Source of the DNA: Methanomicrobium sp. W14
GTDB taxonomy: Archaea; Halobacteriota; Methanomicrobia; Methanomicrobiales; Methanomicrobiaceae
DNA: 64,000 nucleotides
Direction of reading: 5' to 3'
NCBI RefSeq assembly: GCF_017875315.1
Contig: NZ_JAGGMM010000001.1
Coordinates: 248,001 to 312,000 of the forward strand
Positions 1 through 25,145 of the stretch are shown piece by piece. The position numbers were made by a program, and so were the translations under genes. The notes below the pieces were generated by a model, which saw only the letters and a list, made by a program, of their open reading frames with translations, searched no databases and had not been told where the DNA came from. Each line of letters starts with the position of its first letter. Position 1 is the first letter of the stretch.

Positions 1-788
1 GTACTGTATACAGGCCCTTCGTAGCCGTACTTGTATAGCATAGGAACAAGTGCACAGTGGTCAAGGTGTGCATGAGTAAGCACAACGGCGTCAAGGGATT
101 TGAGAGGGCTTATTTCGGGAACGTAAAGGTATGGGAACCCGTCGGAGCTTCCCGGTTTTTCACCGCAGTCGATAAGTATCTTGCTTTCAGGTGTTGAAAG
201 AAGAAATGCCGCTCTTCCTACTTCCCTGCAGCACCCGAGCGTTGTTACACGGACCCATTTGTCCTTGCTTGTAATGTCCCGGTGTATTCTTCTTCCTATT
301 GTGCGTAAAAATGCTTTCCTTTCATCTTTTACAGCACGCAAAAACTGCCTTGTCTGTTTGACGGTTGAACTCTCTATCGGAGGAGTCCTTACGACTTTTG
401 GAGTCCAGCCTATTTCTTTTGTGATATCCCTGAGAGTCGTTCCGTTTTTGCCTATTACAACACCAGGCTTTTCAGCTTCTATTAAGACCTCACCGGTATC
501 GGGATCAAAGAAAATATCTGTTATTCCCGCCCCGTCAGGCACAACAGCATTTATTTTTGTTGTAGCTATTTCGGGGTCTTCAAGAACGTTGGGTCTTACG
601 ACTATTCTTTTCCTAAGATCTCTTGCAAGAATTTTTATAAGGTCTGCTTCGTCTGCAAATTTCTTAGGGTCATCCGTATAGATTACAAGTTCCGGGCCTT
701 CGAATTCGACTTCGGATACATTTATACCGGCCGGAACTTTTGCGTTAATCTTCTCTTTTAGCTCTTTAAGCCTGTCTTCTATTAACAT
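1..788 (-). CDS. aCPSF1/FttA termination ribonuclease, N-terminal part
   Basis: This is the archaeal homologue of CPSF73, a KH-domain plus metallo-beta-lactamase/beta-CASP nuclease that cleaves nascent RNA and terminates transcription. The gene reads leftward and its C-terminal part lies outside the window, leaving about 262 residues. An ATG at 788 opens MLIEDRLKELKEKI. A KH signature VVIGKNGTTLRDI lies near residue 95. Close to the window edge the metal-binding motif THAHLDHC of the nuclease domain is visible. Two N-terminal KH modules ahead of the lactamase domain are typical of this family. It precedes the proteasome beta gene on the other side of a short gap and is probably transcribed in the same direction. 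Confidence 0.93.
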   Translation of the reverse strand, partial: MLIEDRLKELKEKINAKVPAGINVSEVEFEGPELVIYTDDPKKFADEADLIKILARDLRKRIVVRPNVLEDPEIATTKINAVVPDGAGITDIFFDPDTGEVLIEAEKPGVVIGKNGTTLRDITKEIGWTPKVVRTPPIESSTVKQTRQFLRAVKDERKAFLRTIGRRIHRDITSKDKWVRVTTLGCCREVGRAAFLLSTPESKILIDCGEKPGSSDGFPYLYVPEISPLKSLDAVVLTHAHLDHCALVPMLYKYGYEGPVYS

Positions 789-826
789 AAAAAAACGTCC
801 CAAAAAAAAGAAATGGGTATTATTGA

Positions 827-1444
827 CTAATTTGTAATTCCTTTCTTACTGAACTCTTCGTATTTGTCTTTTGTTATAACGACAATGCTGATGTCCTCAC
901 CGGATGCGGAGTCCCTCCTCATGGCGGATGTTACAGCTCTTGCTGCGAGTTCTGTTGTCTCTTTTTCATTCATTCCCTTTTCATAGCGGTCTTCTAAGAC
1001 ACCATATGCGAAAGGAGAGCCTGAACCTGTTGCAACTATATCTTCTTCAGGCGAGGCGCCTCCCATTGCGTCAACAGAATAGATTGAAGGGCCGTTTTTG
1101 TCTACACCGCCCACAAGAAGCTGAACGTAGTAGGGCATCATCCTGTGCTGGTTTAACACATTGCTTAAAAGCGATGCGGCTGCACCGACTGTCATTGGTC
1201 TTCCCCTTCTGATGTCGTAGAGGCTGCATTCAACCTGCATAAGCCTGACCAGCTGCTGGGCGTCACCTACACCTCCGGCTGTTGTCATACCAATCTTTTC
1301 TGCTATCTGGTAGACTTTTTTTGCTTTTTTACTTGCAATCATATTGCCCATCGTGGCTCTTCTTTCGGTGGCAAGTACAACACCGTCATCGAAGATGAGC
1401 CCGACTGTTGTTGTTCCTTTTAATATCTCGGAGCTCTGCTGCAT
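827..1444 (-). CDS. psmB: 20S proteasome beta subunit
   Basis: Catalytic beta subunit of the archaeal 20S proteasome, a threonine protease in the cytoplasm. The open frame extends upstream to 1555, but the family start fits the ATG at 1444, giving 205 residues. This leaves a short propeptide [10 protein letters not shown] before the catalytic TTTVG, where autoprocessing exposes Thr. The following [13 protein letters not shown] and the later [13 protein letters not shown] segment are classic for the family. A TATA element lies about 45 bases upstream of this start, inside the longer frame, which supports the internal start. TGGGAGTG just upstream of the start can serve as ribosome binding site. 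Confidence 0.96.
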
Positions 1445-1488
1445 AAATAGTACACTCCCATTTTTGTCAAATGATGAGTTTGAAAGAG

Positions 1489-1496
1489 TATAAAAA
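1489..1496 (-). promoter_or_regulatory. TATA box of the proteasome beta gene
   Basis: On the minus strand the stretch reads TTTTTATA, 45-52 bases before the chosen psmB start. With the usual 25-base spacing transcription would begin around 1463-1466 and give a short leader carrying the GGGAGTG Shine-Dalgarno-like sequence. Confidence 0.55.
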
Positions 1497-1635
1497 CGCT
1501 TCAGATATACAGATGCTATAATCTGACTTAAATGTTTTTGTATAACCCGTAACAAACCCGGCTTTGCCCGAAAAGGTCGAAGCTTACAATTTATAAGTTT
1601 TTTTCTAAAATTAAAAAATATAATCTGATTATTTT

Positions 1636-2454
1636 TCAGTTTATAAGAATTTTTATCAGTTTGCGATCAAAGAGCATTGATGTTATCTTTTTGTCGCCGT
1701 TTACTACAGGAAGCTGGTCGACCCTTGAGCGTTTCATCTTAAGGGCACATTCGCTGACTTCGGCGTTCTGGGGGACCGCGACGACGTCCTTTACCATGGC
1801 CTCCTTTACCAGTTTGTCGGGAAGCTGAACTTTGGAAATGCCGAATGATATCGTATGCATGTCCCTGATGCTCTCCCATGTCCATTCATCGTCGTCGGTT
1901 CCGTTTGAAAGGTCGCTTACTTCAACGCTGTCCTCTATCATCGCGTTTTTGATGAGATCACGTTCCGAGATTATGCCTGTAAGCATTGAGTCACGGTTGA
2001 GAATAGGTATTGCGTCAAACCCTGATATTTCCATAATTCTTCCCACCAGGGGCAGTGGTGTCTCCTCCCAGAGCGCAAATGTAGGGCGTGTAAAACCTTC
2101 CTTAATCTCGGTTTTGAATTTCATCTGTGCAATTGCGCCTATAAGGTCTGCAATGCTGAGAATACCTATAAGTCTCCCGTTTTCGACTACAGGAAGCCTC
2201 CTGAACTTCTTTTCGTCCATAATCCTTGCGGCTTCGTTAATAGTGGAATTGGGAGAAATCGTGACTGGGCTGGAGGTCATTAAAAGACTCAGCTGTGTTT
2301 CGTCTGATTTTCTTAAGAGGTCTTTTCTTGTAATTATTCCTACAAGCTCCCCGTTCTGGGTTACGGGAACTCCGCTGATGCCTGTTCTCTTCAGGATTCT
2401 TAAGACATCGTCCCTGTTTCCGGGCGTTTCCACGGAAACCACGTCTTCTATCAT
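1636..2454 (-). CDS. Four-CBS-domain protein
   Basis: A 272-residue protein made of two CBS-domain pairs, modules that usually bind adenine nucleotides and act as energy or ligand sensors. Repeated units are visible: [63 protein letters not shown] and a weaker last one around [18 protein letters not shown]. There is no fused enzyme domain, so the partner or target is unknown. It sits 23 bases downstream of the universal stress protein gene in the same orientation and is likely cotranscribed. The first repeat begins almost at the ATG, and the preceding in-frame codons (ERLVRDY before MIEDVV) look like conserved CBS sequence, so translation may begin upstream at a non-ATG codon. Confidence 0.9.
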
Positions 2455-2477
2455 GTAGTCCCGTACAAGTCTTTCCT

Positions 2478-2906
2478 CTATACTCTCACCACCATTGTCG
2501 ATACTTTGCTGTTGCGTATTACATATTCAGAAACACTGCCCAGGAACATGCGGTCAACATTACTTTTTCCGGTTGACCCGACAACTATGAGATCGGCATT
2601 TATTTCATCGGCAAGTTTGAGGATTTCATCCCCCGCGTGCCCCTTTCTGATATATGTTTTTATCTCGACATTGCTCTTTTTGGCAACGTCTTCCCCCTGA
2701 CTGAATGCTTCCTTTCCGATAGTCTCAAACTTTGTATACAAAAGTTCCATTGTGCTGTCGGTTGGAATATCCCTGAAAAGCCCTGTTTCAATCACATATA
2801 CTGCGTTGACAGCGGATTTCCGAATTTTAGACTCGTCGATGGCTGCTTCAATTGCCTTTTCACTGGCCTTTGAGCCGTCCACTGCTACGAGGATGGTCTT
2901 AAACAT
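2478..2906 (-). CDS. Universal stress protein, UspA family
   Basis: A 142-residue single-domain Usp protein of the ATP-binding type. The N-terminus MFKTILVAVDGSKASEKAI is the family beta1-alpha1 unit. The C-terminal phosphate-binding motif is present as VVGSTGKSNVDRMFLGSVSEYV, matching G-2X-G-9X-G(S/T). It is likely a homodimer in the cytoplasm with a stress or sensing role that the sequence does not specify. It heads a probable two-gene unit with the CBS protein. GAGGTAGGG upstream of the start is a fair ribosome binding site. Confidence 0.93.
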   Translation of the reverse strand: MFKTILVAVDGSKASEKAIEAAIDESKIRKSAVNAVYVIETGLFRDIPTDSTMELLYTKFETIGKEAFSQGEDVAKKSNVEIKTYIRKGHAGDEILKLADEINADLIVVGSTGKSNVDRMFLGSVSEYVIRNSKVSTMVVRV

Positions 2907-2930
2907 AAATTCCCTACCTCAAAATTGTGA

Positions 2931-2938
2931 TTTATAAA
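2931..2938 (-). promoter_or_regulatory. Probable TATA box of the Usp gene
   Basis: AATTTATAAA on the minus strand lies 25-32 bases before the Usp start, in the 32-base gap after the amidohydrolase gene. This suggests that usp-CBS has its own promoter with a very short leader. Confidence 0.45.
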
Positions 2939-3985
2939 TTATTTTTTTATCTGCTTAAAATAGGTTCTCTCAATCATCCCTAAATTCACTCTGTTTACAA
3001 TTGTTTTTATTGGAGAGAGGCTGAAGCGCAGATTCGAGTCTGCCGGCATAACGCTGAAAAAAGCCGCTATTTTATTTTCTCCGATAAAAAATGGTTTTCC
3101 AAAGATTTCAGAGCCCTGGACAGCCATCCTCAGGGTGTCGTTTGGGTTTGTCCGGTATGCATACGAGAGAAAAGACATTTCCGAGAGCATGTCAGGCTGA
3201 ACGAACATCACGTTGTCTGTTCCCAGAAGGACCCTGCATCCGTATTCAAGCATTCTTTTTACCGGCGGGTATTTGTCCGAGTCTGACACGCCAAGCGCGT
3301 GGTTTGACCTTGGGCATATGACTATTGGTATATTCATATCTGCACATCTTTTGATCTGTGCGTCGGTTGCATGCGTCATGTGTATAAGGAGGTCTGGTTC
3401 TGCATCTATTGCGGAGTCGACGTCCCGGCTGTCTTTTTCGCCGGCATGAAAGGCAACATATCCACCTGTTTTTCTGGTATTTTCAGCAAAAATTTTTGTC
3501 TGTGGCCCTTCTTTTGTGCTGGAGATGCCTATCCCGTCCGAAATATCCTCTCCTCCTTCTCTTCCGAGAATGATTCCGAAACTTCCTGTTTCCTTTAAAG
3601 CTTCCTTTAAAAGCCCGGCACCTGTTACTCCTCCCTCCCTGAAGTCACAGAACCCGAATGTTGCGGAACGTTTCATATATTCGATGCTTTTTACCATGGC
3701 CTCTTTCAGGACCTCAGGCGGGGTTTTCCTGAGTATCCTGTGCTTTAAGCCGTCAGGCGGTGCGACAAGTTCTGAAAGGCTTCCAAAAACCTCTGCGTCC
3801 ATTGCAACGGTGTCTGCAAGGTGTGTGTGCGAATTGAAAAATCCGGGAAATATCCACCTGTCGGGGACGTTTTTCTTATCGTTTATTTCTGAAATGATTC
3901 CGTTTTCAACCACAATCTCAACGTCGCGTACTTCCAGGTCCTCTCCTGTACATGCTCTTCCTGATATTGTAAAACAATCAGACAT
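2939..3985 (-). CDS. Amidohydrolase family protein (TRZ/ATZ-like)
   Basis: A 348-residue metal-dependent hydrolase of the amidohydrolase superfamily, which removes amino or amide groups from small cyclic substrates. The N-terminal beta-sandwich leads into WIFPGFFNSHTHLADT, where HTH supplies two metal ligands. Later ligands are the His in YVAFHAGEKDS, the HMTHATDA segment and the Asp in LLGTDNVMFV. The pattern is that of cytosine/guanine/SAH deaminase-like enzymes, but the substrate cannot be read from the sequence. It is divergent from Sec61-beta across an AT-rich promoter region at about 3990-4040. Confidence 0.85.
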   Translation of the reverse strand: MSDCFTISGRACTGEDLEVRDVEIVVENGIISEINDKKNVPDRWIFPGFFNSHTHLADTVAMDAEVFGSLSELVAPPDGLKHRILRKTPPEVLKEAMVKSIEYMKRSATFGFCDFREGGVTGAGLLKEALKETGSFGIILGREGGEDISDGIGISSTKEGPQTKIFAENTRKTGGYVAFHAGEKDSRDVDSAIDAEPDLLIHMTHATDAQIKRCADMNIPIVICPRSNHALGVSDSDKYPPVKRMLEYGCRVLLGTDNVMFVQPDMLSEMSFLSYAYRTNPNDTLRMAVQGSEIFGKPFFIGENKIAAFFSVMPADSNLRFSLSPIKTIVNRVNLGMIERTYFKQIKK

Positions 3986-8982: not shown

Positions 8983-9824
8983 CCCGTCACCACCAGAAAT
9001 CCTGCATATATGAGAACTATGACTATTACTCCTATCTGAATCGTAACCGCATCATACGGCGAAAGCATTGGGGAAAGAGCACATATGAACGACATCGTCA
9101 GGAGGACTAAAAGGGAGCATATGACAAGCATCCAGAAAGGCATTGCACCTAAGAAGAGAGTTACGAAGACAGCCAGGAGGACAAACGTCTTCAGAGCGAA
9201 GCCTGTTTCAAGTCCTGCCCTCCACACCCCGAAGTGCTCGGTCTTGTTCCCGCTCACTATCTCTTTCGCTTCGATTATCCCAAACGGGCTGTAGGGGACT
9301 TTCGAAAGGACGATTATGTACATCGCAAGTGCGAGCGGAAGGGCGGTTACCAGGAGGACTCCGTGCTGCGCCTGGTAAGCTTCGATGTCAGAGATCATCA
9401 AAGACCCTGTGACAAGGTATATTACCGCAATCGATGCGATAAGGGGAATCTCGGAGGCTGCGGATATGACTGACCGTATTGCGCCGAATTTTCCGTACGG
9501 CGAACCGGACGAGAGGCCGAGACCGTGCTCGGTAATCTTGTGAAGCAGGTAGACGCCGAATATTATCAGGAGGCTTCCGCCGGTTACAAGGACGTAGAGT
9601 GCTCCCGACCAGATGGCGATGACGGCCATTATTACCGCTACGTAGAGCACATGCGATGCTGTTTTTGGGATCCAGGTCTGTTTGAACATGAATTTGAGCA
9701 CATGAAGATACTCCTGCCATATCGGAGGCCCTGGTCTTGTCTGAATCCTTGCTATGACCTTCCTGTGAATACCATGAAACAGAAGACCTGCGAATATTGC
9801 AAACAGAATATAAAGAATAATCAT
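8979..9824 (-). CDS. ehaJ: NuoH-like membrane subunit of Eha hydrogenase
   Basis: A 281-residue protein with about eight membrane helices, related to NuoH/HyfC, which links the hydrogenase module to the ion-pumping arm. The conserved amphipathic segment RIQTRPGPPIWQEYLHVLKF and the GLSSGSPYGKFGAIR and PFGIIEAKEIVSG motifs are diagnostic. In complex I the region after GPP lines the quinone site; in group 4 hydrogenases it is kept without quinone. Confidence 0.9.
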   Translation of the reverse strand: MIILYILFAIFAGLLFHGIHRKVIARIQTRPGPPIWQEYLHVLKFMFKQTWIPKTASHVLYVAVIMAVIAIWSGALYVLVTGGSLLIIFGVYLLHKITEHGLGLSSGSPYGKFGAIRSVISAASEIPLIASIAVIYLVTGSLMISDIEAYQAQHGVLLVTALPLALAMYIIVLSKVPYSPFGIIEAKEIVSGNKTEHFGVWRAGLETGFALKTFVLLAVFVTLFLGAMPFWMLVICSLLVLLTMSFICALSPMLSPYDAVTIQIGVIVIVLIYAGFLVVTG

Positions 9825-9825
9825 T

Positions 9826-10038
9826 TCAGTAACCTATAAACGGGAAATCCCCCTCTTTGTCAGAGGCCTTCAGGAGCAGTCCTAGTGAGAGGACGAATAC
9901 CGGAAAGGAGACGACGACTGCAGCCGCCGCCGTCCACCCGGCAATGACGCCTTCCAGGGAAAGTGCTGTCGAAATTACGCACAGCAAAGCCGATATTAAA
10001 AGTAATACTTTAATAATGCTTTTTTTCATCTTCATCAC
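9826..10038 (-). CDS. Small Eha membrane subunit (EhaI-like)
   Basis: A 70-residue protein with two membrane helices (about residues 8-28 and 32-56) and a short charged tail KASDKEGDFPFIGY. Its place between the EhaH-like and NuoH-like genes matches EhaI. It overlaps the preceding gene by four bases and stops one base before the next start. Confidence 0.6.
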   Translation of the reverse strand: MMKMKKSIIKVLLLISALLCVISTALSLEGVIAGWTAAAAVVVSFPVFVLSLGLLLKASDKEGDFPFIGY

Positions 10039-10712
10039 ATCGAGACCACTATTTCAATTACTCTCAGAAACATCACAAGCGAGCTTACGTGGACCATGAG
10101 TATGTACGGAGCACCGGGAGCCCTTGTTATTTCCGCCTTTGCAACATATACAGGCGCCATCCCCTCGGCAAGGACTCCAATCACCAGAAGAAGCTTTGCC
10201 ACAAGAGGGACTGCGACCACAGGTGTGAAAAGAATCCACATGCTCAGAGTCCCGGTAGACGCGAGGACTATTGCAGCGCCACCGAAAAGGGGCATTGTCC
10301 CGACCATAGCAAGTATCCCGTATTCAAAGGCGTTGTCGAGGATATGCTTGTTTTTAACCGAGGCTACTATTCCTATGTTCGCGATTCCGACCATTGCCGT
10401 AAAGAGGGTGAAGTTGAAGACGTCGCCGCTCAAAACCCCTCCCATTGTCGCAAGACCGCACGCCGTTGCCATGAAGCGCTGAAACCTCATCTGCTTTTTT
10501 GAAATGTCTTTTGTATAGTATGCATCTCCTCCGAACGCTATATCGACCTGCCTTTCGGGTTTTGAAATTATTGCGATGACCGTAAAGACAAGTGCGAACG
10601 TGAAGAGTATCGCAGTGTATGGCGTCAGGTAGTCGACAATGTCCCCGAACGGTATGCTGAAAAGCGCCTGTCCTTCGATGTTGGTGTTTACCAGTTCATA
10701 CATCGTTTCCAC
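10035..10712 (-). CDS. ehaH: Antiporter-like membrane subunit of Eha hydrogenase
   Basis: A 225-residue polytopic protein related to the proton-translocating NuoN/MrpD family but much shorter. GLATMGGVLSGDVFNFTLFTAMVGIANIGIVA resembles the central antiporter helices with a membrane Glu/Asp region, and LLLVIGVLAEGMAPVYVAKAEI follows. It is the likely ion channel that lets the H+ or Na+ gradient drive ferredoxin reduction. It overlaps the EhaG frame by 17 bases. Confidence 0.78.
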   Translation of the reverse strand: METMYELVNTNIEGQALFSIPFGDIVDYLTPYTAILFTFALVFTVIAIISKPERQVDIAFGGDAYYTKDISKKQMRFQRFMATACGLATMGGVLSGDVFNFTLFTAMVGIANIGIVASVKNKHILDNAFEYGILAMVGTMPLFGGAAIVLASTGTLSMWILFTPVVAVPLVAKLLLVIGVLAEGMAPVYVAKAEITRAPGAPYILMVHVSSLVMFLRVIEIVVSM

Positions 10713-13689: not shown

Positions 13690-14146
13690 TTACCAGTCAG
13701 CTGTTCTAATGCCGCTGTCGACAATCCCGTTTTGGAGTTTTTTTAGTTCAATTATTTTCATTGACTGTATTATTTCGGGGAATACCGTTTCATTGCATAA
13801 ATCTTCATCCGAGTACCAGCCTACTTCGATAATGCCCTCTTTTTTTGCATCAGAAGTCAGGGACGAATCCCCGCTGAGGTAATCGCAAAGGTACCAGATT
13901 TTTACCATCTGGTAACGGAGGGTTTTGAGATTGTCAATCATTACAGGTCATTTGGTTTTGCATACGACACCGGTTTCTTCTTTTACTTCTCTTTTTGCCG
14001 CATCTGCAAGTGATTCGCCGTCTTCAACTGCACCTCCGGGTGCGACAAGATAGGTATTTTCTCCATCTTGGTATCTTACCAGCAGAATTTTATCATCGTT
14101 GAATTATGATTCCGCCAGCGGCGATTCTGTGATTATGACATGACAT
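13690..14146 (-). pseudogene. NUDIX hydrolase, inactivated by frameshift and stop
   Basis: Reading leftward from the ATG at 14146, MSCHNHRIAAGGIII begins a NUDIX domain. A one-base frame change near 14104 is needed to continue into NDDKILLVRYQDGEN, then the full NUDIX box: GGAVEDGESLADAAK followed by REVKEETGV. Then an in-frame TGA at 13948-13950 interrupts it, and the same frame resumes as MIDNLKTLRYQMVKIWYLCDYL, a normal NUDIX continuation. Two independent lesions with an intact catalytic box indicate recent loss of an (oxidised) nucleotide or nucleoside diphosphate hydrolase. Substrate unknown. Confidence 0.85.
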
Positions 14147-14516: not shown

Positions 14517-15182
14517 CTAAGGGAGCATGGAATGGGCGATTCTTCCGGAAAGTGTGATTGAGATCAACGTTTCCCTACCATTTACTTCTTTTATCACCAG
14601 ACTTGCCTCCTCCAAAACCCCGACTGACTGGGATAAAACCTGAGGACTTAACGTTTTATTATTATTGGGATTTTTTGAAATTCGCTGCCTGAGTACACTT
14701 TGGTTTATTTTAGTCCCCGGGTTCTCAGAAAGAATCTTTAAAATCTTTTGATACAGTTTATTCTTTGAAAGAGTGCTCATTGGCATTTTTGGGGTAGGAA
14801 ATTCCAAAGGTTCATTAAATTCTTTCGGAAGATAATATCCTGTTCCGTCAAGCCAGAGAGCTCCCATAAACGTCATAATAGCGAAATCTTTGCGCCCAAA
14901 AGTGACATTGAAATACAAATTTGCATCTGGGTATCTTTTGCGAATATCTATCAGTTTCAACATTAGATCATTCAGGTTCCCATTCTTATACCTGATTAAC
15001 TCGACGTCAATGTCAAGTGTTGAATTGCAAATATTAATAACATTTTTTATACTTGATCTGACCTCTTCAGGTGGGTTTTCTTCAGTTACCAGAATATATT
15101 TCTGAACAGGATAAAACCTGATAATTTTTTGGATACCTTTGTCAACATTTGCTCCAGTTGTGAGAATATGGATATTCAACAT
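14517..15182 (-). CDS. CARF-domain winged-helix regulator (Csa3-like)
   Basis: A 221-residue predicted transcription regulator. The N-terminal Rossmann-like CARF domain (about residues 1-125) opens with IHILTTGANVDKGIQKII and contains the second CARF motif as LYFNVTFGRKDFAIMTF, in the place of the usual N-x-TGG-x-K. The C-terminal third (about 140-221: YQKILKILSENPGTKINQSVL to the end) is a winged helix. CARF domains bind nucleotide second messengers, often cyclic oligoadenylates. It is divergent from the viperin operon across 50 bases and is probably its regulator. No CRISPR-cas genes are in the window. Confidence 0.82.
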   Translation of the reverse strand: MLNIHILTTGANVDKGIQKIIRFYPVQKYILVTEENPPEEVRSSIKNVINICNSTLDIDVELIRYKNGNLNDLMLKLIDIRKRYPDANLYFNVTFGRKDFAIMTFMGALWLDGTGYYLPKEFNEPLEFPTPKMPMSTLSKNKLYQKILKILSENPGTKINQSVLRQRISKNPNNNKTLSPQVLSQSVGVLEEASLVIKEVNGRETLISITLSGRIAHSMLP

Positions 15183-15183
15183 A

Positions 15184-15234
15184 TAATATTTAATATCAAC
15201 ACTTATATCTATAACATTTTCTGTAATATTTAAT
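15184..15234. promoter_or_regulatory. Symmetric divergent promoter of the CARF regulator and viperin operon
   Basis: The 50-base gap is highly ordered. An 11-base direct repeat TAATATTTAAT occurs at 15184-15194, next to the regulator start codon, and at 15224-15234, overlapping the viperin start codon. Midway lies TTATATCTATAA (15203-15214), nearly its own inverse, about 30 bases from each start codon. This suggests leaderless transcripts in both directions from a shared TATA region, with the repeats as operator candidates. Confidence 0.5.
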
Positions 15235-16105
15235 GATCATGCTTCCAAAGATTAAAAAGCAAAAAGAATGTGTTGCAATTCGTTCAGCGAACTGGCATAT
15301 TACTTCGAAATGTAATTACAATTGTAAATTTTGTTTTTCACAGAACCTGAAAGGAGAACTGAAAGATCTTAAAAAAATGAACGAAGTACTGTTACATCTC
15401 AAACAGCTTGGGATTACCAAAATCAACTTTGTCGGCGGGGAACCCCTGATGTATCCACATATTATTGAAGCAATAAGGACAGCCAAGGATCTTGGATTTA
15501 CAACAAGTATTACGACAAACGGATCACTTTGCAATGAAAAATTGATTTCAGAATTTGAAGATATTCTTGACTGGATCGGTCTGTCCGTAGATTCGGTTTC
15601 TGAGAAAATTGAACGGGAATTAGGAAGAGGAAATGGCGGACACCTGTCACATATCATGAAAATTACCGGATTAATTCATCTGTCAGGAATAAAATTAAAG
15701 GTCAATACTACAGTTACAAGAAAAACCTATCTTGAAGATATGCATGAGTTCATTGAAAAAACAGACCCTGATCGTTGGAAAATTTTTCAGTTTCTCCATG
15801 TAAAAGGGCAGAACTCGAACGCTGCAGAGAGTTTGTCAATCAGTAGTGAAGAATACAGGCTGTTTAAGTTACGGCATCAGGATATTGTACTTAAAAACGG
15901 AATAGCACCGGTCTTTGAATCAGCAGAAGACATGGTTGACTCCTATCTTATGATTAATCCGGAGGGGAATATATTCATAAATAAAAACTGTAATTACAGA
16001 GAAATTCCTTTATTAAATCTTAACAGGAAGAATTTTTCAGAACTTGTCAACCAGGAAAAATATATTTCACGAGGGGGTCTGTATGACTGGAAACGGGAAA
16101 AATAA
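15233..16105 (+). CDS. Prokaryotic viperin (radical SAM ddhNTP synthase)
   Basis: A 290-residue radical SAM enzyme of the viperin family, which converts a nucleoside triphosphate such as CTP to a 3'-deoxy-3',4'-didehydro chain terminator. The cluster motif is CNYNCKFCF (Cys27, 31, 34). Viperin-specific features follow in order: KINFVGGEPLM, TTNGSL, DWIGLSVDS, GRGNGGH, LKVNTTVTR, DPDRWKIFQFLHVKGQN, DSYLMINPEGNIF and the C-terminal YISRGGLYDW. These match animal viperin along its whole catalytic part; the animal amphipathic N-terminus is absent. The next gene overlaps by 23 bases. No nucleotide kinase, a frequent viperin neighbour, is adjacent. Substrate base cannot be read from the sequence. 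Confidence 0.93.
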   Translation: MIMLPKIKKQKECVAIRSANWHITSKCNYNCKFCFSQNLKGELKDLKKMNEVLLHLKQLGITKINFVGGEPLMYPHIIEAIRTAKDLGFTTSITTNGSLCNEKLISEFEDILDWIGLSVDSVSEKIERELGRGNGGHLSHIMKITGLIHLSGIKLKVNTTVTRKTYLEDMHEFIEKTDPDRWKIFQFLHVKGQNSNAAESLSISSEEYRLFKLRHQDIVLKNGIAPVFESAEDMVDSYLMINPEGNIFINKNCNYREIPLLNLNRKNFSELVNQEKYISRGGLYDWKREK

Positions 16106-16574
16106 TGAGATTATCCATTTCCTGATTTTAGGAAATTCCAAAGTGCATATTCTCAGGGCTATCGACTATTTTGATATAAAAAAGGCCGTAATCTTTACAT
16201 CTGAAAATATGATGATTGAGAATCAGCCGTTTATTGACGAAATAGAGCAAAATGGTGTTAATGTTATCAAAGTAGTCCTTCTTTCTCCCTTTGAAGAAAA
16301 GGCACTTGAAAATATGAGTCAAAAAATTCTGAAGACCTACGAACTATATTCAAATAGAGGGTCCTCTGAGGTTATTGCCGGACTTACCGGGGGAACAAAC
16401 CTCATGGCTCTTGCAATGGGCATGTTGTGTCTTTCTGCCGGTTTAAAGGCTCATTATGTTCTCAATAATGAAGTAAACGACCTCATCGAAATTGATTATT
16501 TCAAAAAACTGTGGAAGAACAGAGATCTTTCAAATTTGAAAGATTGTATCTTAGAAGGTGTGGCCGATGAGTAA
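16083..16574 (+). CDS. Stand-alone CARF-domain protein
   Basis: A 163-residue protein that consists of a single CARF-like domain. It opens with IIHFLILGNSKVHILRAIDYF, has KKAVIFTSENMMIE at strand 2, and carries the clear nucleotide-binding motif GLTGGTNLMALAMG near residue 103. There is no fused nuclease or winged helix. The ATG at 16083 with an upstream GAGGGGG is chosen over an earlier in-frame ATG inside the viperin gene. It overlaps the viperin end and the helicase start (ATGA-type), so the three are translated together. It may be a ligand-binding sensor subunit or a ring-nuclease-like enzyme; the sequence does not decide. Confidence 0.8.
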   Translation: MTGNGKNNEIIHFLILGNSKVHILRAIDYFDIKKAVIFTSENMMIENQPFIDEIEQNGVNVIKVVLLSPFEEKALENMSQKILKTYELYSNRGSSEVIAGLTGGTNLMALAMGMLCLSAGLKAHYVLNNEVNDLIEIDYFKKLWKNRDLSNLKDCILEGVADE

Positions 16575-19473
16575 TCTTTATTTTGAAAACCTTGGAGAAG
16601 AAGATCCCGAATTTTTAGAAAATTTGGTCGTACGGAGACTTAAAGATTTTTGGTATTATCTGAACAATGCTGAAAATCAGCTGGGCAGGCATACATACAA
16701 ATTTTCGTTTACAGTTAAGGGCATAAATGGAGTTATAAGGCTTTCAGATGAAAAATCATGTATAAATCTCTTTTCCTGTGAAGATTTATTTTATGATGAA
16801 AACCTGAGGCAGAAAATCAACAAGAGTAATATTGATAAAAAAAACAGGACTGTATCTCTTGAATACAGTTTATATAAAGGAATGATATACGCAAAGTCCA
16901 ACAATAAAATAATATCCTGCAGATTCGAACCCAAATTCTATACATTGACTGACATTCAGCCTGTGGGAACACACTCTGATGAGGAGTATAACATTGCACT
17001 TGATTTTCTGAATAATTCTGATTCTATTCGGATAAGAGTAAAGGGTAAGTTTAGATCAATAGATTTTAAAAATAATCTGAAGAAGAAAGAATCGATAACA
17101 GTAAAGACACTTCCGGATGACAAACAAAACTTTTGGGTTTCATACAACACTTACATTCTTCGACGGCAAAGAGAAGCGATAGAGTCCCTTGCCCTTTCAC
17201 CCCGGAAACATCAGATTCCTATACTGAATCTGCTCAGGCAGAAAGGCCGCGATTTCAACTGGGGAGATGTTGACATGTCTTTTGAACCGGCTCGGTGGTT
17301 CATACTAACAGATGATTCAAGAGACGGAACTTCCGAACAGCGGGAATTTGTTAAGAAGGCCTGGGGGACACCCGATTTTGCAATACTGGAAGGTCCGCCG
17401 GGTTCCGGGAAGACAACAACACTCCTTGAATTAATTGCCCAGGCAATTTCCAGAAACCAGCGGATTCTGATGGTAGCCTCTACCCATGTAGCTGTTGACA
17501 ATGTTTTGGAAAAACTTCTGGATACACCCATTCAGACAGATGATGGTGAAAGATCTTTAAAGGAAGCCTGTGGGGCGATTCCACTTCGAATAGGAGATCA
17601 GGGTGATGTCTCAGTTAAGATTCAGCCTTATTGTCTTGAGAGGTTTGCCGAAAGTGAGATCGATTCGATATCAGAACATCTCAAAAAAAAATCGACGAAG
17701 AGCAGCCTTACAGAAGCAGAGAAGATGTGGAAGGGGACGTTAAAAAAGGACAGGAAAAAAGCAAAAGAAAACATGGAAACTCTGCTTTTGGATGTTGCAA
17801 ATCTAATTTGCGGAACTACGATAGGAATCCTGAAAACACCTATTATAGAGAATTCAAATATTTCAGAACCTCTGTTTGACATAGTAATTCTTGACGAGGC
17901 TTCAAAAACGACATTCCAGGAATTTCTTGTCCCTGCACTTTACGGCAAAAAGTGGATCATATCAGGAGATATAAAGCAGCTTTCACCTTACGTTGATCAA
18001 ACCCCAATTGAAAAAAATCTTAAAACAATTAAATCATTTACCAAAGAGGACGGGTATAAAGACAGACAAATATGTCTTTCTGCATTTCAGGCGTCAAGGG
18101 GAGGAAAAAATAGTGAAAACAGTGTTTTGATACTAAAGGAAACTGAGGAAGAAATTTCTGAATGCATTCACTATCTTAGTCAGCAGGCTGAGGGAATAAG
18201 TAAACTGTGTAAAAATTCTGATCACGGAAAATCTCGTATAAATTGTTTGGGATTAGAGCAATTGCCATACACGAATTCTAAGAAACTTGAGATTTTGGCC
18301 TCTGATATTATCGTTACGAAAAAGGATCTACTTCCGCAGATCGAGCAATATCTTCCGCCTCATGTTTATCTTGACGCAAAAATACTAAGAGAAAATTTCT
18401 CAGATGAATATATCCGGAGAAGAAAAGCATTTAACGTCAGACCAGACGAGAAAAAAACATGGGAAGGTGAAATCGCGTGGCGAATTTGCAGAATGCACGA
18501 ACTGCAAAATGTCAAGGACAAGTATGACTCTCTTAATCATGAGGTTAGTCTGCTTGTCCCTCAGTTTGAAAGAGTTGAAGGGAAAAAGAAAAGATTTGAT
18601 CTGTTCAGGGACAAGATAGACACTATCAGGAGAATTGCGCTTCCTTCGGTTCTTGAACTTCTTCAGAATGGTTTTGAGACATCCCAAAAATTCAACGATT
18701 CAGACCTGATTGCACTTTACAGTGGTCTTTCTTATGCAGGAAATGAACCAGGGGTCCTTAAGACAAGGCACACACTTCTCACTTATCAGTACAGAATGCA
18801 TCCTCAAATTTCCTATCTGCCGCATAAGTATGTGTATGAAGGAAAAGCTCTTAAAAACGCCAACGGCGATGAATGGATGAAAAAAGAACGAGAATGGGGA
18901 TATGATAAATATAGTTCACGATGTGTCTGGATTGACATAAGACCAAAAAAAGGAGACCTCCAGGCTGACAAATCCAAATCCAACCATGCAGAAGTACTGG
19001 CAATCAGAAATGATTTCGACCAGTTCAAAAATTGGGCGAAAGAGAATCCCAACAAAAAAAACGGATATTGGTCGGTAGCAATTCTTACATTCTATAACGG
19101 ACAGTTGGATGAACTAAAAAAAGAATTTGCAGGCGAACACGGAAAAGAAGGAATTTCATCCGAATTTGTTCTGAAAAAATCAAATGTTTCAGTAAAAATA
19201 TCCTCTGTTGATCGCTACCAGGGACATGAAGCTGACGTTGTATTTCTCTCATTTGTCCAATCCTGCGGGTTTAGAGATAAAAGAAAGTGTAAAAAATCAG
19301 TCATCGGTTTTCTCAATTTTCAAAACCGTCTCAACGTTGCAGTTACACGGGCACGTTATCAGCTGGTGATGTTTGGTGATAAACAGAACTTCGAATCATG
19401 CAACGCAGAATTTCTCCGTGCACTGGCAAGTGAATCAACTGCCGGGGATATTGAATTCGGAGGTGTAAATTAA
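16567..19473 (+). CDS. Upf1-like superfamily 1 helicase (COG1112 type)
   Basis: A 968-residue SF1B helicase. Motifs in order are Walker A EGPPGSGKTTTLLEL (about residue 276), Walker B DIVILDEAS (about 438), motif III ISGDIKQLSP, motif IV region TYQYRMHPQIS, motif V SSVDRYQGHEADVVFLS and motif VI RLNVAVTRARYQLVMFGD (about 923). The first 230 residues and an insertion of about 230 residues between motifs III and IV are family-unknown and charged. Relatives act on RNA or DNA 5' to 3'. The start ATG at 16567 sits inside the CARF gene end; GAAGGTG precedes it. The family match is to helicases of Mokosh-type defence systems, but no kinase domain is seen here. Confidence 0.88.
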   Translation: MSNLYFENLGEEDPEFLENLVVRRLKDFWYYLNNAENQLGRHTYKFSFTVKGINGVIRLSDEKSCINLFSCEDLFYDENLRQKINKSNIDKKNRTVSLEYSLYKGMIYAKSNNKIISCRFEPKFYTLTDIQPVGTHSDEEYNIALDFLNNSDSIRIRVKGKFRSIDFKNNLKKKESITVKTLPDDKQNFWVSYNTYILRRQREAIESLALSPRKHQIPILNLLRQKGRDFNWGDVDMSFEPARWFILTDDSRDGTSEQREFVKKAWGTPDFAILEGPPGSGKTTTLLELIAQAISRNQRILMVASTHVAVDNVLEKLLDTPIQTDDGERSLKEACGAIPLRIGDQGDVSVKIQPYCLERFAESEIDSISEHLKKKSTKSSLTEAEKMWKGTLKKDRKKAKENMETLLLDVANLICGTTIGILKTPIIENSNISEPLFDIVILDEASKTTFQEFLVPALYGKKWIISGDIKQLSPYVDQTPIEKNLKTIKSFTKEDGYKDRQICLSAFQASRGGKNSENSVLILKETEEEISECIHYLSQQAEGISKLCKNSDHGKSRINCLGLEQLPYTNSKKLEILASDIIVTKKDLLPQIEQYLPPHVYLDAKILRENFSDEYIRRRKAFNVRPDEKKTWEGEIAWRICRMHELQNVKDKYDSLNHEVSLLVPQFERVEGKKKRFDLFRDKIDTIRRIALPSVLELLQNGFETSQKFNDSDLIALYSGLSYAGNEPGVLKTRHTLLTYQYRMHPQISYLPHKYVYEGKALKNANGDEWMKKEREWGYDKYSSRCVWIDIRPKKGDLQADKSKSNHAEVLAIRNDFDQFKNWAKENPNKKNGYWSVAILTFYNGQLDELKKEFAGEHGKEGISSEFVLKKSNVSVKISSVDRYQGHEADVVFLSFVQSCGFRDKRKCKKSVIGFLNFQNRLNVAVTRARYQLVMFGDKQNFESCNAEFLRALASESTAGDIEFGGVN

Positions 19474-21104
19474 TGGAAATAAATCTTAAAAGGGACGTTT
19501 CAGTTGAGTCATTTGAAGCAATTATGGAAATTGCCTCTTTTGATGAAAAATATGATTTTATTCTCCCCGTTCTGAAACTGGAAGAGGAGGGGGGGATTAC
19601 GGTAGAGCAGGTGAATACAAAACTTTTTAATAAGAAACCGGATCATGAAATCGGAAAGCGTCTTCTGGACAGGATAGTTCGGTACAGGCTTATAGAAAAT
19701 TACAATGAAATATCCAGTGACTCAAGAAGTAAGGAAATAAAAGATGCAGAGACAGTTTATTATCAGCCAACCAAAAAAGGAAAAATAGTTTTAAAAGCGC
19801 TTGATAAGAAAGATCTATATTCTTCATTCTTAATTCAAAATTCCTTTGGAAAAGATATATTTGATAAATTTCAGGATTATGAAATAATTGGTTTTGGTTC
19901 TAATGAACCGAATTCGGTAAACTCCTCTAATGGAGAGAATGATTATTACCTTGACACTTTTGGAAAAAAATTAATCCATTATTCATGGCCTCATTCTCCT
20001 CAAGATGAAGATGAAGATGAAGATGAAGATGAGGATGAGGATGATTTATTCAAATATCTTGAATCTGCGGAACTTCTTGAAAAGATTGTACCGAAAAATT
20101 ATGAGGGAGGCTATGATAATGAATCTCCCTCAAATGAGAGTCTTAAAACATTATATAAGTATAATTTAACTGAACTTGGGAAAAAGGCACTTGAAAAAGG
20201 AAAAGTGCCTGTTCCTGAGAAGGGTTCGTATGTGTTATATGCAACAGAAGATCCGCTTTTCCCTGAAAACCTGATAGCCTACGAACCAAAACCTGAAACA
20301 AGAAAAAATGATTTTATAGAGAAAACCCAAAAACACCAAAACGAGGCTAAGAAAACTGACGTATCCAGAGAGACTGAAAGCCCCGACTGGCTCAAACAAC
20401 TTATTAAATCCTTAAAGGACTCTCCCAGGATTATCGAACTTGCTGCACAGGACGGAACGGAAATCCAGCTGACGGAGATCGAGGGGAATATTAAAAGCTC
20501 TAATCAAAACAGAAAAGTATCTATCGTCCTAAGGATAAAATCATCCCAAAATCCACAGATGGAAGTTGCTACAGCCGGAAAAGGAAGTGGATTGAAATCC
20601 ACCTGCACACCGCAAATAAGGATGGATCTTTTAGAGGTGCTAAAAAATATTATCCCGGAAAGAAGCGGTGATCTGACAGAATTCGAAAATGAACCGGCTC
20701 TTCTGGTGAGTTTTGATGAAATAGAAAACAATGCTCAGGAGATAAACTCCGGAAAGAAAAATGTCTTAGTTAAGTCACCTGAAATTCAGGGATTTGGCCG
20801 GTTCGACGATTTAACAGTTAATGGTATCACATTATTGCCAAAGACTTTTCAGGATGCTGTCTCATGGGTAAATCGCCTGATAATTGATTCAATAAATTAT
20901 TACATCGACGAAAATTCTTACGAGGAACAATGTAAAAGAATAATTGAACGATTCTCAAAGAGATTCAGACAAGGGGAGTTAAAAAAAGCTGTGGTGTCGT
21001 TTGATGAGATGAAATCAATTATAAAATCCGAAAAAACAAAGAACCCGGAAAAATACTGGTTCGTAACAGCTCCTGAAATCCTTACGTTAAAGGAGATGAG
21101 ATAA
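19473..21104 (+). CDS. Unknown 543-residue operon protein with winged-helix-like ends and acidic repeat
   Basis: I do not recognise this protein. The first about 120 residues look like a winged helix (FILPVLKLEEEGGITVEQV to KKGKIVLKAL), and a second such unit may end near LTELGKKALEKGK. Between them lies a run of alternating Asp and Glu at about residues 178-191, encoded by a hexanucleotide repeat. The C-terminal half (from about 300) is mixed alpha/beta with no catalytic motif I can name. The start ATG shares one base with the helicase stop (TAATG), and the PLD gene follows after a single base, so it is surely part of this operon, perhaps as adaptor between helicase and nuclease. Confidence 0.75.
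   Translation: MEINLKRDVSVESFEAIMEIASFDEKYDFILPVLKLEEEGGITVEQVNTKLFNKKPDHEIGKRLLDRIVRYRLIENYNEISSDSRSKEIKDAETVYYQPTKKGKIVLKALDKKDLYSSFLIQNSFGKDIFDKFQDYEIIGFGSNEPNSVNSSNGENDYYLDTFGKKLIHYSWPHSPQDEDEDEDEDEDEDDLFKYLESAELLEKIVPKNYEGGYDNESPSNESLKTLYKYNLTELGKKALEKGKVPVPEKGSYVLYATEDPLFPENLIAYEPKPETRKNDFIEKTQKHQNEAKKTDVSRETESPDWLKQLIKSLKDSPRIIELAAQDGTEIQLTEIEGNIKSSNQNRKVSIVLRIKSSQNPQMEVATAGKGSGLKSTCTPQIRMDLLEVLKNIIPERSGDLTEFENEPALLVSFDEIENNAQEINSGKKNVLVKSPEIQGFGRFDDLTVNGITLLPKTFQDAVSWVNRLIIDSINYYIDENSYEEQCKRIIERFSKRFRQGELKKAVVSFDEMKSIIKSEKTKNPEKYWFVTAPEILTLKEMR
20004..20045 (+). repeat. Hexanucleotide repeat GATGAA/GATGAG in the unknown operon protein
   Basis: Four GATGAA units, two GATGAG units and a final GATGAT in tandem, all in frame and coding Asp-Glu pairs. 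Unit changes would alter linker length by two residues without frameshift. Confidence 0.85.
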
Positions 21105-21105
21105 A

Positions 21106-22665
21106 ATGGCAGGAGATTATTCAGGAAACATTCTCAAATCACTTGAAAAGCCCCTGACTGAAACGTTCAGTTTTGAAGATGAAAATCTCGGGCCGTGCTG
21201 GACATACAGAAATTATGCAGACACAGATGATAAAAGGTCAATGAGGTGGGTCTTTCATTCAAATCAAAGAGATTTCATCGTACCTCAAAAAAATGGTAAA
21301 TTTATAACTTATCTCGTTGAGAAAATAGAAGAGGCAAAAGAAACAATCTGCATTTCTTCGTTTTTAATTCAAAAGACCGGTGTTACAGATGCTCTTATAG
21401 CAGCAGAAAAGAGGGGAATCAATATTTTTATCCTTACGGCAAGGGAAGAAGACCTTAAAAATATTGACGATGACAGGCTTGAGGGTGAAGATAAGATAAT
21501 TAAAGAACATATTAATCTTCTAAACTCATTTGCAGAAAAGATCCTCGTAAGGACATGCGACAGTTTCCATGCGAAATATATAATAATTGATCCCGTGTCT
21601 TTTAATCCGTTCGGGTTGATGATGACCTGCAACGCGACATCGGCACCAATGAACGGTTCAAATATAGAGATTGCAACTAATTTGAAAAATGATGAAATCA
21701 AATCATTCTTTGCCCATTTTATATACGGTTTCTGGAAGATGGCCAATCATGAACTTCTGGAAAACAATAAACTCACCGCTGTAAAAAAAGAACTCGCGTT
21801 CAAACCTCAACTGGGGGAGATTACACTTCCGGCAACAACTGACAAGTTATTTTCATTGAATGATAGTATCCTCAAACTTATCAACACTGCCAGAAAATCG
21901 ATAACGATTACTGCATGGTCTTTTGATGAAGGAAACAAAATTGTTGAGGCGCTTGAATCAGCGTCTGACCGGGGTGTTTCAATTAAGATCGGAACAAAGC
22001 AAAACAAAAGGAATACAAAAGCTCTGTTAAATGTTATAGCGAAAGGCGCTGAAGTATTCGGGCATCCAAGATTCCATGCCAAATGTGTCATTGTGGATGG
22101 GAATAAAGGACTTATAACTACATCAAATTTCACAAAACTCGGTCTTGAAACCGGATTTGAAACATCAGTAATTCTTGATGCAGATGAAGCACAAACTATG
22201 GAACCGGTTATTTCAGGATGGCTAAAAAGTTGTCCCTGGGAACTGAAAAAAGATCTTTTGTTGAGAGATGCAAATGAAAAAATTTTGCAATTGAATGAAA
22301 ATAAAAAGGATCTTGATGAAATATCTATTGTTTCTGAAGAAAAAACAGAACTTGAGGATTATATGCCGGATTCACTGGAAAAAATTTTGGGATACACCAT
22401 ACAAAAATCACAGGCTGAAAGAGAAGTAAAAAATCTTAAAAATAAAAAGATTCAGAGATTGATCCTCTCTCAGAAAATCATCGCACCCAACCTTTCGGCT
22501 AACTCAAAAAAAGAGGCAGATATAGATGATAGTCCATTTGATGTTTATAATTCAGGAAAAGGAAAAAGGTTTATTGTTGTGAAAAACTGGGACGATCTTA
22601 AGCCGGCTGAGGAAGTGGCCAGGAAGATAAAAGCCAAAATAGTTGTAAAAAAAGAATTACTGTAA
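21106..22665 (+). CDS. Phospholipase D-superfamily nuclease with two HKD motifs
   Basis: A 519-residue PLD-fold protein. The first catalytic motif is FHAKYIIIDP followed by TCNATSAPMNGSN, the second RFHAKCVIVDGNKG followed by TTSNFTKLG, so both HxKxxxxD sets are complete and the protein can form the active site within one chain. No signal peptide is present, so a nuclease acting in the cytoplasm is more likely than a lipase. About 130 residues after the second motif are charged and probably helical. It is the last gene of the viperin operon, one base after the unknown protein. PLD nucleases paired with SF1 helicases occur in known defence systems. Confidence 0.87.
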   Translation: MAGDYSGNILKSLEKPLTETFSFEDENLGPCWTYRNYADTDDKRSMRWVFHSNQRDFIVPQKNGKFITYLVEKIEEAKETICISSFLIQKTGVTDALIAAEKRGINIFILTAREEDLKNIDDDRLEGEDKIIKEHINLLNSFAEKILVRTCDSFHAKYIIIDPVSFNPFGLMMTCNATSAPMNGSNIEIATNLKNDEIKSFFAHFIYGFWKMANHELLENNKLTAVKKELAFKPQLGEITLPATTDKLFSLNDSILKLINTARKSITITAWSFDEGNKIVEALESASDRGVSIKIGTKQNKRNTKALLNVIAKGAEVFGHPRFHAKCVIVDGNKGLITTSNFTKLGLETGFETSVILDADEAQTMEPVISGWLKSCPWELKKDLLLRDANEKILQLNENKKDLDEISIVSEEKTELEDYMPDSLEKILGYTIQKSQAEREVKNLKNKKIQRLILSQKIIAPNLSANSKKEADIDDSPFDVYNSGKGKRFIVVKNWDDLKPAEEVARKIKAKIVVKKELL

Positions 22666-22993: not shown

Positions 22994-25145
22994 TTGAATT
23001 TGACATTAAAAAATGTTGCCAGCTATAAAACTCCTGTTAATGTAAAGATTGACAAAAAAATTAATTTGTTTTACGGTCTCAACGGTTCCGGAAAAACCAC
23101 CATATCGAATTTCTTACAAAACCCAAATCTGGATTGTTTTTGTGACTGCAATATTGCAGATGGAAAAAACAAATAATTTGTAGTGTATAATGAAAATTTT
23201 GTAGAAAATAATTTATGAAAGCTCAAAACAAAGAGGAATATTCACTCTCGGAAATGAGAACAAAGAGGCTGAAATCAATATATATGAGGCCAGGGATAAA
23301 ATAACCTCTCTGGAAAATAGAAGAGAAGAACTGAATAAAGAATTTATTGAAACCGAATCTGAAATAGAAGACCTTGAAAATAATATCCAAAAACAAATCT
23401 GGGATGCCGGGATATGCTATAAAAATTCCCTCTTTAGACTTTTGTCTTACCGGATATAAAAATAATAAAAAGAAATTCTTTAACGAAATATTGAAGACCA
23501 AGCCTGAAACAAATGCAGACATCAGTTTTCAGACTCTTGAATCCGAAATCAGCTTTTTAGAGGAAGGAGACACTGAGATTAAAGCTGAAATTCCTGAAAT
23601 TTCTCTTAATATAGGTATTATTGAAAACGATCCAATATTTCAGGACATAATAGTCGGAAAAAAAGATAACCCGTTTTCAGGTCTTATTGGAGAACTGGAT
23701 AATTCAGACTGGGTAAAAAAAGGGTTGTCCTTTATTGATTCTCAAAAAAAATGCCCCTTCTGCCAACGGGAACTTGGAGAAAAAATTCTGATTAATTTAA
23801 ATGATTATTTTGATAAAACATATTCCCAGAGAATTGAATATCTTGATTATTTGAGGACTCAGTATGAAAAAGAAATTAAAAATCTTCCTGATCCTGAAGC
23901 ATTAAAGAGAGAACAATTTGCAGCTGACTGCCCTGCCTTTATTACTGAATTTATAAATCTTAAAATGCTGCTTTTTCAAAACCTTGAAACTATTGATAAA
24001 AAAATAAGTGAACCAAACAGAAAAATTAAATTAACGGATACCAAATCCCGGTTTAATAAATTAAATCATTATATTGATGCGATAAACCATAATATCCGGG
24101 AGCATAACGACAGAATCAACAGAACTGATGAAATCAATGAAAAAATCAGGGTATCGTTTCTTAGATGTGTCCGAAGAGAGAATGAAGCAGGTATTAAGCA
24201 ATACTTTGTAAATAAGTCAAAATATACTGGAAAACTGGAAAAACTGAGATCTGAAAAAGATAATCATATCCCTGGCGAAATTCAAAAAGAGAATGAAATA
24301 ATTTCAGAAAATCTTGATAAGATAACTAATTTAGAGTCTTCAGTAAACAGCATTAACGATTACCTGAGATACCTGGCGATATCAGGTTTTCAAATCAAAA
24401 AATTTCAGACAAATTTCTACAGGATTGTCAGAGAGAACAATAGTGGTGACCAGTTTAAGTCGTTAAGTGAAGGAGAAAAAACAATAATCAGCTTTCTTTA
24501 TTTTTTGGAGCTGTGCCAGGGGTCAGTATTATCCAATTCATCAGTTGATAAAGATAAAAGGATTATAATTATTGATGACCCTGTTTCAAGCCTTTCATAT
24601 ACTTACGTTTTCAATATTGCGGACCTGATAAAAAGCAGAATTATAGACACGAATTACGCTTCAGTATGCATTTTAACACATAACCTGTATTTTTTCCATG
24701 AACTTTGCATGAGAACAAAAAAGCCATGAATAGAGGAGATGTGAACCTGTACCGGATTTCCAAGAGTACTGAGACTCATATAAAAGAACTGGGTATGAAC
24801 GAAATTCAAAACGACTATAGTGCATACTGGAGGGTAATTAAAGACTTTGATGAAGATGAACGTATGGTCTCAAATTCAATGCTGGCAATTTCAATGAGAA
24901 ATATTATCGAGCATTTTTTCACATTCATTAATGACAAAAAAGATTTAAACGAAGTGATGACGGACATTAAAAAGACTGATTCCGGATATTCTGCTTTTCA
25001 CAGATATATGAATCGAAATTCCCACTCCGATTCTGTGAACCTGTCAGATGTAAATGATATTGACCCTTATATTTTCAGGAATGCTTTTAAAGAAGTCTTT
25101 TACAAATCTGGTTATCAGGACCATTACTTAAAAATGTTAAAATGA
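22994..25145 (+). pseudogene. AAA_13-type P-loop ATPase (RloC/PrrC-related), multiply frameshifted
   Basis: A decayed gene starting with TTG behind a purine-rich site. Part one has LTLKNVASYKTPVNVKIDKK and the Walker A FYGLNGSGKTTIS, then an in-frame TAA at 23174-23176. After it the frame continues FVVYNENFVENN; a one-base shift near 23212 is needed for YESSKQRGIFTLGNENKE and a coiled coil. Another shift near 23400 leads to the large middle part with a zinc-hook-like CPFCQRELGE, the signature LSEGEKTIISF and Walker B IIIIDDPVSSLS. A last shift near 24725 gives the C-terminal domain, with HFFTFINDKKDLN and RYMNRNSHSD. At least four lesions. Intact relatives include restriction-linked anticodon nucleases and other abortive-infection ATPases. 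Confidence 0.85.

Follow-up and report, generated by a model that had tools for sequence, protein, structure and literature searches.

We examined a 64,000-nucleotide stretch of the 2.54-Mb genome of Methanomicrobium sp. W14 (G000:C1:248001-312000, hereafter the window), in which five co-directional genes for a viperin, a small CARF protein, a UPF1-like superfamily 1 (SF1) helicase, a protein that we call X and a nuclease-like protein of the PLD family stand divergent to a gene for a CARF-winged-helix (CARF-wH) regulator (Table 1). All six open reading frames (ORFs) are intact and lie where a preliminary description of this DNA had placed them. Judging from sequence comparison, the cluster very probably represents a genuine antiviral system that has not yet been given a name. 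We refer to its helicase, X and PLD genes as the triad.

Several of the gene junctions stand as first described: the 23-bp overlap of viperin and CARF (CARF ATG at 16083, viperin stop ending at 16105, as read from the DNA), the TAATG overlap of helicase and X, and the single base between X and PLD. The CARF and helicase genes overlap by 8 bp, ATGAGTAA (helicase ATG at 16567, CARF stop ending at 16574), and not by the strict 4-bp ATGA that had been reported. A longer ORF for the small CARF protein opens with TTG at 16044. When near-identical copies are compared, the ratio of nonsynonymous to synonymous substitution (dN/dS) is about 0.12-0.17 for viperin, CARF, helicase and PLD, which argues that these four genes are maintained.

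Table 1. Positions of the features discussed. Rows without a label refer to the window; L labels denote individual loci in other genomes.
Feature	Position	Strand	Remarks
CARF-winged-helix (Csa3-like) regulator	14517..15182	-	221 aa, divergent; PADLOC Csa3 1.5e-23
Divergent intergenic region	15183..15232		11-mer TAATATTTAAT present twice across the region; read from the sequence
Viperin (radical SAM)	15233..16105	+	290 aa; NF038283, PADLOC pVip
Stand-alone CARF domain protein	16083..16574	+	163 aa; PADLOC CARF families
UPF1-like SF1 helicase	16567..19473	+	968 aa; Walker A 17392-17415; Pfam AAA_11/AAA_12
Protein X	19473..21104	+	543 aa; outside known families
Hypervariable segment of X	19710..20171	+	residues about 80-233
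PLD-family nuclease-like protein	21106..22665	+	519 aa; PLDc_2 twice
Third viperin partner (~555-590 aa)	L145 6922-8589; L147 6603-8270; L148 4068-5843; L149 4036-5736; L150 3818-5491		
RtcR-type gene after PLD	L030 13846-16829; L051 13435-16541; L047 13341-16351		others too
CARF + PIN-like pair	L092 6134-7731; L078 6127-7733; L088 14961-16528		
NYN ribonuclease genes near triads	L071 1-375; L098 1761-2288		

The viperin is identified by NF038283 (261.3 bits against a cut-off of 180, 8.7e-78) and by PADLOC pVip (2.4e-76), carries CxxxCxxC at 15311-15334 as well as GGEP, and is matched by solved viperins at 1e-40 to 1e-37. The regulator matches CARF3 (8e-15) in addition to Csa3 (PDLC02909) and shares 46% identity with its counterpart in the G153 locus described below. 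The small CARF protein matches PADLOC CARF families at 3e-11, and its TGGTN at 16386-16400 is invariant in an alignment of seven homologues; the CARF and Csa3 profile matches and this conserved motif together place the proteins in the CARF superfamily. The helicase carries the motifs GPPGSGKT and DEA, and its best solved relatives are UPF1, SMUBP-2 and SEN1. The PLD protein has two HxK(x)4D motifs (21568-21591 and 22075-22098), matches PLDc_2 at 5.5e-27 and counts the Nuc endonuclease among its solved relatives.

Neither protein X nor its bacterial homologues have a meaningful match in Pfam, NCBIfam or PADLOC. An earlier AlphaFold2 (AF2) prediction for X had a low pLDDT of 59 and matched nothing; a model built from 52 homologues reached a pLDDT of 81.7 and had no match in the PDB (best E 0.86). 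The 52-member alignment and this model point to a hypervariable insertion and a conserved C-terminal domain, preceded by a predicted N-terminal strand-helix-helix-helix-strand arrangement that we read as a winged helix. Across the insertion, X is 44-65% identical between two operons (C3 and G019, see below) whose helicases are 97.7% identical. Synonymous and nonsynonymous differences (pS and pN) are both raised there. Positive selection on this part was rejected, as pS rises along with pN, and the variable segment more likely marks local exchange of alleles, as in specificity subunits. We infer that X may be a recognition or adaptor subunit.

Recurrence and exchange of partners

The view of the locus as a composite of defense-type modules is supported. 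A gene order unique to this strain would have refuted it, and the order is conserved in distant archaea. A second full copy lies on contig C3 of the same genome, with a divergent CARF-wH gene and the order viperin-CARF-helicase-X-PLD followed by a coiled-coil gene; it shares 48-62% protein identity with the window copy for viperin, helicase, X and PLD (X 49%, helicase 62%), and its regulator belongs to a different clade. A third copy occurs in a sister species (G019), where viperin is split from CARF by a 4.6-kb insertion (L008 12145-16715) that holds genes for an IS66-like transposase, for a CARF-wH protein resembling that of the window (76% identical) and for a 406-aa protein outside known families. 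The C3 and G019 operons are 94.5-98.5% identical in DNA from the coiled-coil gene to just past CARF-wH and have unrelated flanks in the stretches compared, so the operon moves as a unit. The same six-gene order is present in G153, which belongs to another family, and a rearranged form is found in G062 and G025, where CARF-wH is divergent to viperin, PLD-X-helicase is convergent and the small CARF gene is missing. Recurrence of the gene order in other loci at about 35-62% protein identity argues against a chance arrangement.

An X profile found six genomes among the 232 of the class, one of which (G131) carries a distant form without viperin or CARF, and no further genome in a phylum sample of 394. 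Beyond these, triads with viperin and/or CARF genes were found in Methanomassiliicoccales, Heimdallarchaeota, Prometheoarchaeum, Thermoplasmata, Lokiarchaeota and Thaumarchaeota, several of the archaeal loci being from metagenome bins. The search was extended to bacteria by running the helicase alignment, seeded by two motifs, against 84,980 species genomes; the counts that follow describe the best 80 of 187 relatives. With profiles built from the archaeal genes, helicase-X-PLD forms a unit in most scanned loci of both domains. All 11 archaeal loci with a helicase call have X, and nine have PLD, the other two being cut by contig ends. A CARF-wH gene lies within 4.5 kb of the archaeal triad in 9/11 cases (L027 and L045 by weak profile matches), the contigs of the remaining two ending upstream, and viperin is present in 6/11.

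Among the 67 bacterial loci with a helicase call, X was found in 54 and PLD in 57; none had viperin or CARF-wH. Of the 52 bacterial loci whose downstream sequence extends for 5.2 kb or more, 36 have an RtcR-type gene (CARF-AAA(sigma-54)-HTH) directly after PLD, and the four such genes that were scanned match PADLOC RtcR_PspF1 at 1e-134 to 6e-212 as well as Pfam Sigma54_activat. Two different kinds of CARF regulator are thus tied to one effector triad in bacteria and in archaea. Eight marine gammaproteobacteria from several genera carry near-identical triads (L028-L030, L032, L033, L037, L038, L042), which points to very recent spread. The four-gene form, which has no name in the libraries searched, also occurs on two Vibrio plasmids, where it is annotated merely as a helicase, a hypothetical protein, a PLD-like protein and a sigma-54 regulator. 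Searched as a single sequence against genome contigs, X gave no match, whereas the helicase alignment succeeded there. X had no match in phages and the helicase one partial match; a scan of viral contigs with the helicase and a search of E. coli with X-PLD DNA gave none.

The viperin side of the locus shows a comparable exchange of partners. The 231 class genomes searched hold 25 viperins that score above cut-off; six of them lie next to the triad and account for every full triad found in the class. Most others are accompanied by CARF-wH and by a large protein of the TPR type (12 in the tree set); the G009 viperin also has a TPR-type partner, with CARF-wH not called. The TPR proteins that were scanned match PADLOC TPR at 2e-32 to 9e-269, and one scanned CARF-wH protein matches Csa3 at 1e-92. 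Five class viperins pair with a third partner of no known family, encoded divergently from viperin and without CARF-wH (Table 1). In the viperin tree the triad label changes at least four times on supported branches and the triad viperins of G062 and G025 fall inside the TPR set, which indicates that partners were exchanged. In a helicase tree built by a quick method, the helicases switch at least three times between linkage to viperin and linkage to CARF only, with clustering not above that of shuffled labels. Since bacterial loci lack viperin and have an RtcR-type activator in place of the archaeal regulator, helicase-X-PLD appears from these comparisons to be the core and viperin an archaeal add-on effector arm. 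The place first given to viperin in the system thus needs correction, as viperin lies outside the core.

Known systems that share parts of the locus

No described system was said to combine chain-terminator synthesis with CARF proteins and a helicase-nuclease. Part of this combination is already catalogued, since viperin and a Csa3-like CARF protein are known together with a TPR protein (PADLOC PDLC02903/02907/02909; PMC12988326), and viperin-TPR is the sole archaea-exclusive system type in a 2026 survey of archaeal immunity (PMC12988326). The helicase-X-PLD partner was in no library or paper found within PADLOC 2.0.0, NCBIfam 20.0, Pfam and the open literature found; papers defining viperins and classifying CARF proteins lie outside this scope and may hold context. 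What is new is the combination and the core protein X, the domain types being known.

Viperin-TPR resembles the window in having viperin and CARF-wH, mostly divergent, with a partner downstream; its regulators are 38-47% identical to those of G062 and G025, and a spacer palindrome (see below) is common to both. The partner is a TPR protein there and helicase-X-PLD here, and viperin-TPR has no small CARF. The TPR model has no match at the window and matches other class loci only.

The nearest mechanistic relative is CoCoNuT, where the gene after a CnuH-type UPF1-like helicase usually encodes a winged helix-turn-helix (wHTH) protein bearing an effector nuclease, which is PLD in type III-C, and CARF genes lie in the vicinity (PMC11090510). 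CnuH/CnuE resemble the present operon in the UPF1-like helicase, in the PLD nuclease and in the neighborhood of RtcR-type or other CARF genes; X, with its predicted N-terminal winged helix, may correspond to the wHTH-bearing protein. In the window X and PLD are separate genes, the archaeal loci have viperin, and neither the McrB-like GTPase nor the McrC of CoCoNuT types II and III is found among the six genes. Mokosh types I and II likewise have UPF1-like helicase and PLD domains, but their PADLOC models contain no X, CARF or viperin and match in part: MkoA at 1e-83 over helicase regions only (best stretch at profile positions 542-843 of 1112), with no kinase or NERD found by Pfam in the window helicase that would make it a full-length MkoA, and MkoB at 1.6e-14 over the PLD region only.

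RtcR regulators resemble the present arrangement in placing a CARF sensor beside the operon that it controls, and the RtcR_PspF1 model matches the bacterial fourth gene; RtcR controls rtcBA RNA repair, whereas the bacterial gene here comes after helicase-X-PLD. The PLD protein also matches DrmC profiles of DISARM (1.8e-24). DISARM was rejected, as DrmC scores 82.7 bits against an NCBIfam cut-off of 133 and no other DISARM gene is present in the operon.

Control of the operon and competing explanations

The preliminary description proposed that CARF proteins sense an infection nucleotide and control the helicase-nuclease. CARF control is strongly suggested by the linkage of this triad in bacteria to a CARF regulator of a different kind, the RtcR type; the divergent CARF-wH protein, however, looks like a transcription factor rather than a direct enzyme switch. 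A palindrome GTTTC-N8/9-GAAAC, slight variants allowed, is present in 10 of 14 spacers between CARF-wH and viperin (shuffled spacers average 0.07), nine times at 57-68 bp before viperin and once (C3) at -115. It stands upstream of viperins with both partner types, triad and TPR. In the window, the repeated 11-mer TAATATTTAAT of the divergent spacer is a possible, weak operator candidate.

We favor, with a probability of roughly 0.58, a CARF-induced antiviral operon in which viperin and the UPF1-like helicase/X/PLD machine would act as parallel effectors. Infection would yield a nucleotide or RNA-fragment signal, and its binding by the divergent CARF-wH protein would switch the operon on. Viperin would then make chain-terminating ddhNTPs that poison viral RNA synthesis, while in parallel the helicase, with X as recognition subunit or adaptor, would move on viral RNA or RNA-DNA and pass it to the PLD nuclease. 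Translated together with viperin and helicase, the small CARF protein may be a second sensor, acting as a gate or as a ring-nuclease-like off-switch. The comparisons show one helicase-X-PLD machine tied to two quite different CARF regulator kinds in bacteria and archaea, and archaea including Asgards repeatedly joined it to viperin, an enzyme that human innate immunity also uses. For archaeal viperins the locus offers a candidate regulator as well as a candidate operator, and in X it offers a new orphan family that looks like a recognition part.

Several observations weigh against this reading. Four archaeal triads (L072, L098, L045, L027) have CARF but no viperin, and these, together with the rearranged form without the small CARF, mean that neither viperin nor the small CARF is essential. 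The palindrome is absent from the spacer of the window copy; it was spotted before it was counted, and the 14 loci include near relatives. Finally, the role given to X is drawn solely from its predicted winged helix and its variability.

The strongest competitor, though a clearly less probable one, is a pair of independent defense modules under a common promoter, in which a viperin/CARF-regulator cassette would be co-induced with helicase-X-PLD but have no biochemical connection to it. The replacement of the triad by TPR beside viperin in 12-13 class loci, mostly with CARF-wH, the triads without viperin in bacteria and some archaea, and the partner exchange in the viperin tree would all fit such independence. 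It accounts less well for reading frames that overlap or abut from viperin through X in several genomes, for a pairing repeated in archaea, and for the position of the small CARF gene, which always lies between viperin and helicase where viperin and CARF are co-directional.

What the CARF proteins bind separates further explanations. Cas10 was found in one of the 15 genomes searched, that of the window itself (G000:C1:323323-323880, about 11 kb right of the window), and not in the other 14, which include the carriers G019 and G025 (single-contig, 99% completeness). No CD-NTase scored above cut-off in the carriers G000, G019, G025, G062 and G153; weak matches in frames of ~470 aa may be CCA-adding enzymes. 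Since G019 and G025 lack Cas10 and all five carriers lack a CD-NTase above cut-off, the general CARF ligand is probably neither a type III cyclic oligoadenylate nor a CBASS signal, and the system provides a directly testable case of CARF signaling in Cas10-free genomes. The CARF domain of RtcR binds tRNA halves with a 2',3'-cyclic phosphate (PMC7790460). By analogy, a ligand of this kind would suit an RNA-damage-responsive system and might extend to the archaeal regulators. It has also been suggested that ddhNTP itself is sensed. Viperin would then be a signal synthase, with ddhNTP, or else an RNA or oligonucleotide that it terminates, as the CARF ligand that switches on the operon and licenses helicase-X-PLD; we regard this as unlikely, but if true it would amount to nucleotide second-messenger immunity without a cyclic-oligonucleotide synthetase.

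These surveys also make it quite improbable that the operon is an accessory of type III CRISPR, switched on by the binding of Cas10-made cyclic oligoadenylate to its CARF proteins: the CARF domains, the Csa3-like regulator and the nearby Cas10 would fit, but the absence of Cas10 from the 14 other genomes searched and of a CD-NTase above cut-off from the five carriers speaks against it. Still harder to sustain is a divergent member of Mokosh or of CoCoNuT CnuH/CnuE (helicase, wHTH and PLD) with viperin adjacent by chance; beside the MkoA and MkoB matches and the CoCoNuT gene order stand the restriction of MkoA to helicase regions, the lack of any PADLOC model for X, the missing McrB/McrC, and a CARF and viperin linkage that is tight and repeated. 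Least credible is a non-defense RNA-repair or RNA-stress operon, which the bacterial RtcR-type regulator recalls (RtcR normally controls RNA repair; PMC7790460), given the absence of RNA ligase or cyclase genes from the operon, the viperin partner, the PglZ gene beside the C3 copy, the patchy occurrence, plasmid carriage and near-identical copies across genera.

Flanking genes and further associations

Other genes accompany the triad elsewhere. A further CARF gene with a PIN-like gene stands beside Asgard and euryarchaeal triads, tested by profile in L092 and recognized by resemblance in L078, L088 and L027 (Table 1), and the L088 contig also holds a second, distant relative of its triad helicase (1-3225, minus strand), about 6.5 kb away from it. 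A PglZ gene lies near the C3 copy. On a Vibrio aerogenes plasmid (L155), cas1 and cas2 (9418-10375) are found a few genes from a helicase-X-PLD-RtcR operon, and a Klebsiella pneumoniae plasmid (L156, CP052287.1) carries an incomplete four-gene operon with insertion sequence (IS) elements within and beside it. A subclade with longer helicases (L096 7196-17614; similarly L076, L082 and L083) has an NrdG-like radical SAM protein nearby, no RtcR-type gene and, in L096, an AAA+ ATPase nearby; it is possibly a separate system.

In the window, the operon stretch is poor in G+C (0.34-0.38, against 0.43-0.50 on its left), and a tRNA-Leu gene lies nearby. The 3' end of this tRNA was tried as an attachment site and rejected, as the window holds no second copy. 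Between tRNA-Leu and the operon, broken ORFs resemble the remnant of a NUDIX hydrolase gene (13690-14140, minus strand, by sequence reading), and the right side of the operon adjoins an apparently frameshifted gene for an AAA_13-type ATPase (22994-25145, plus strand) that resembles a decayed neighbor.

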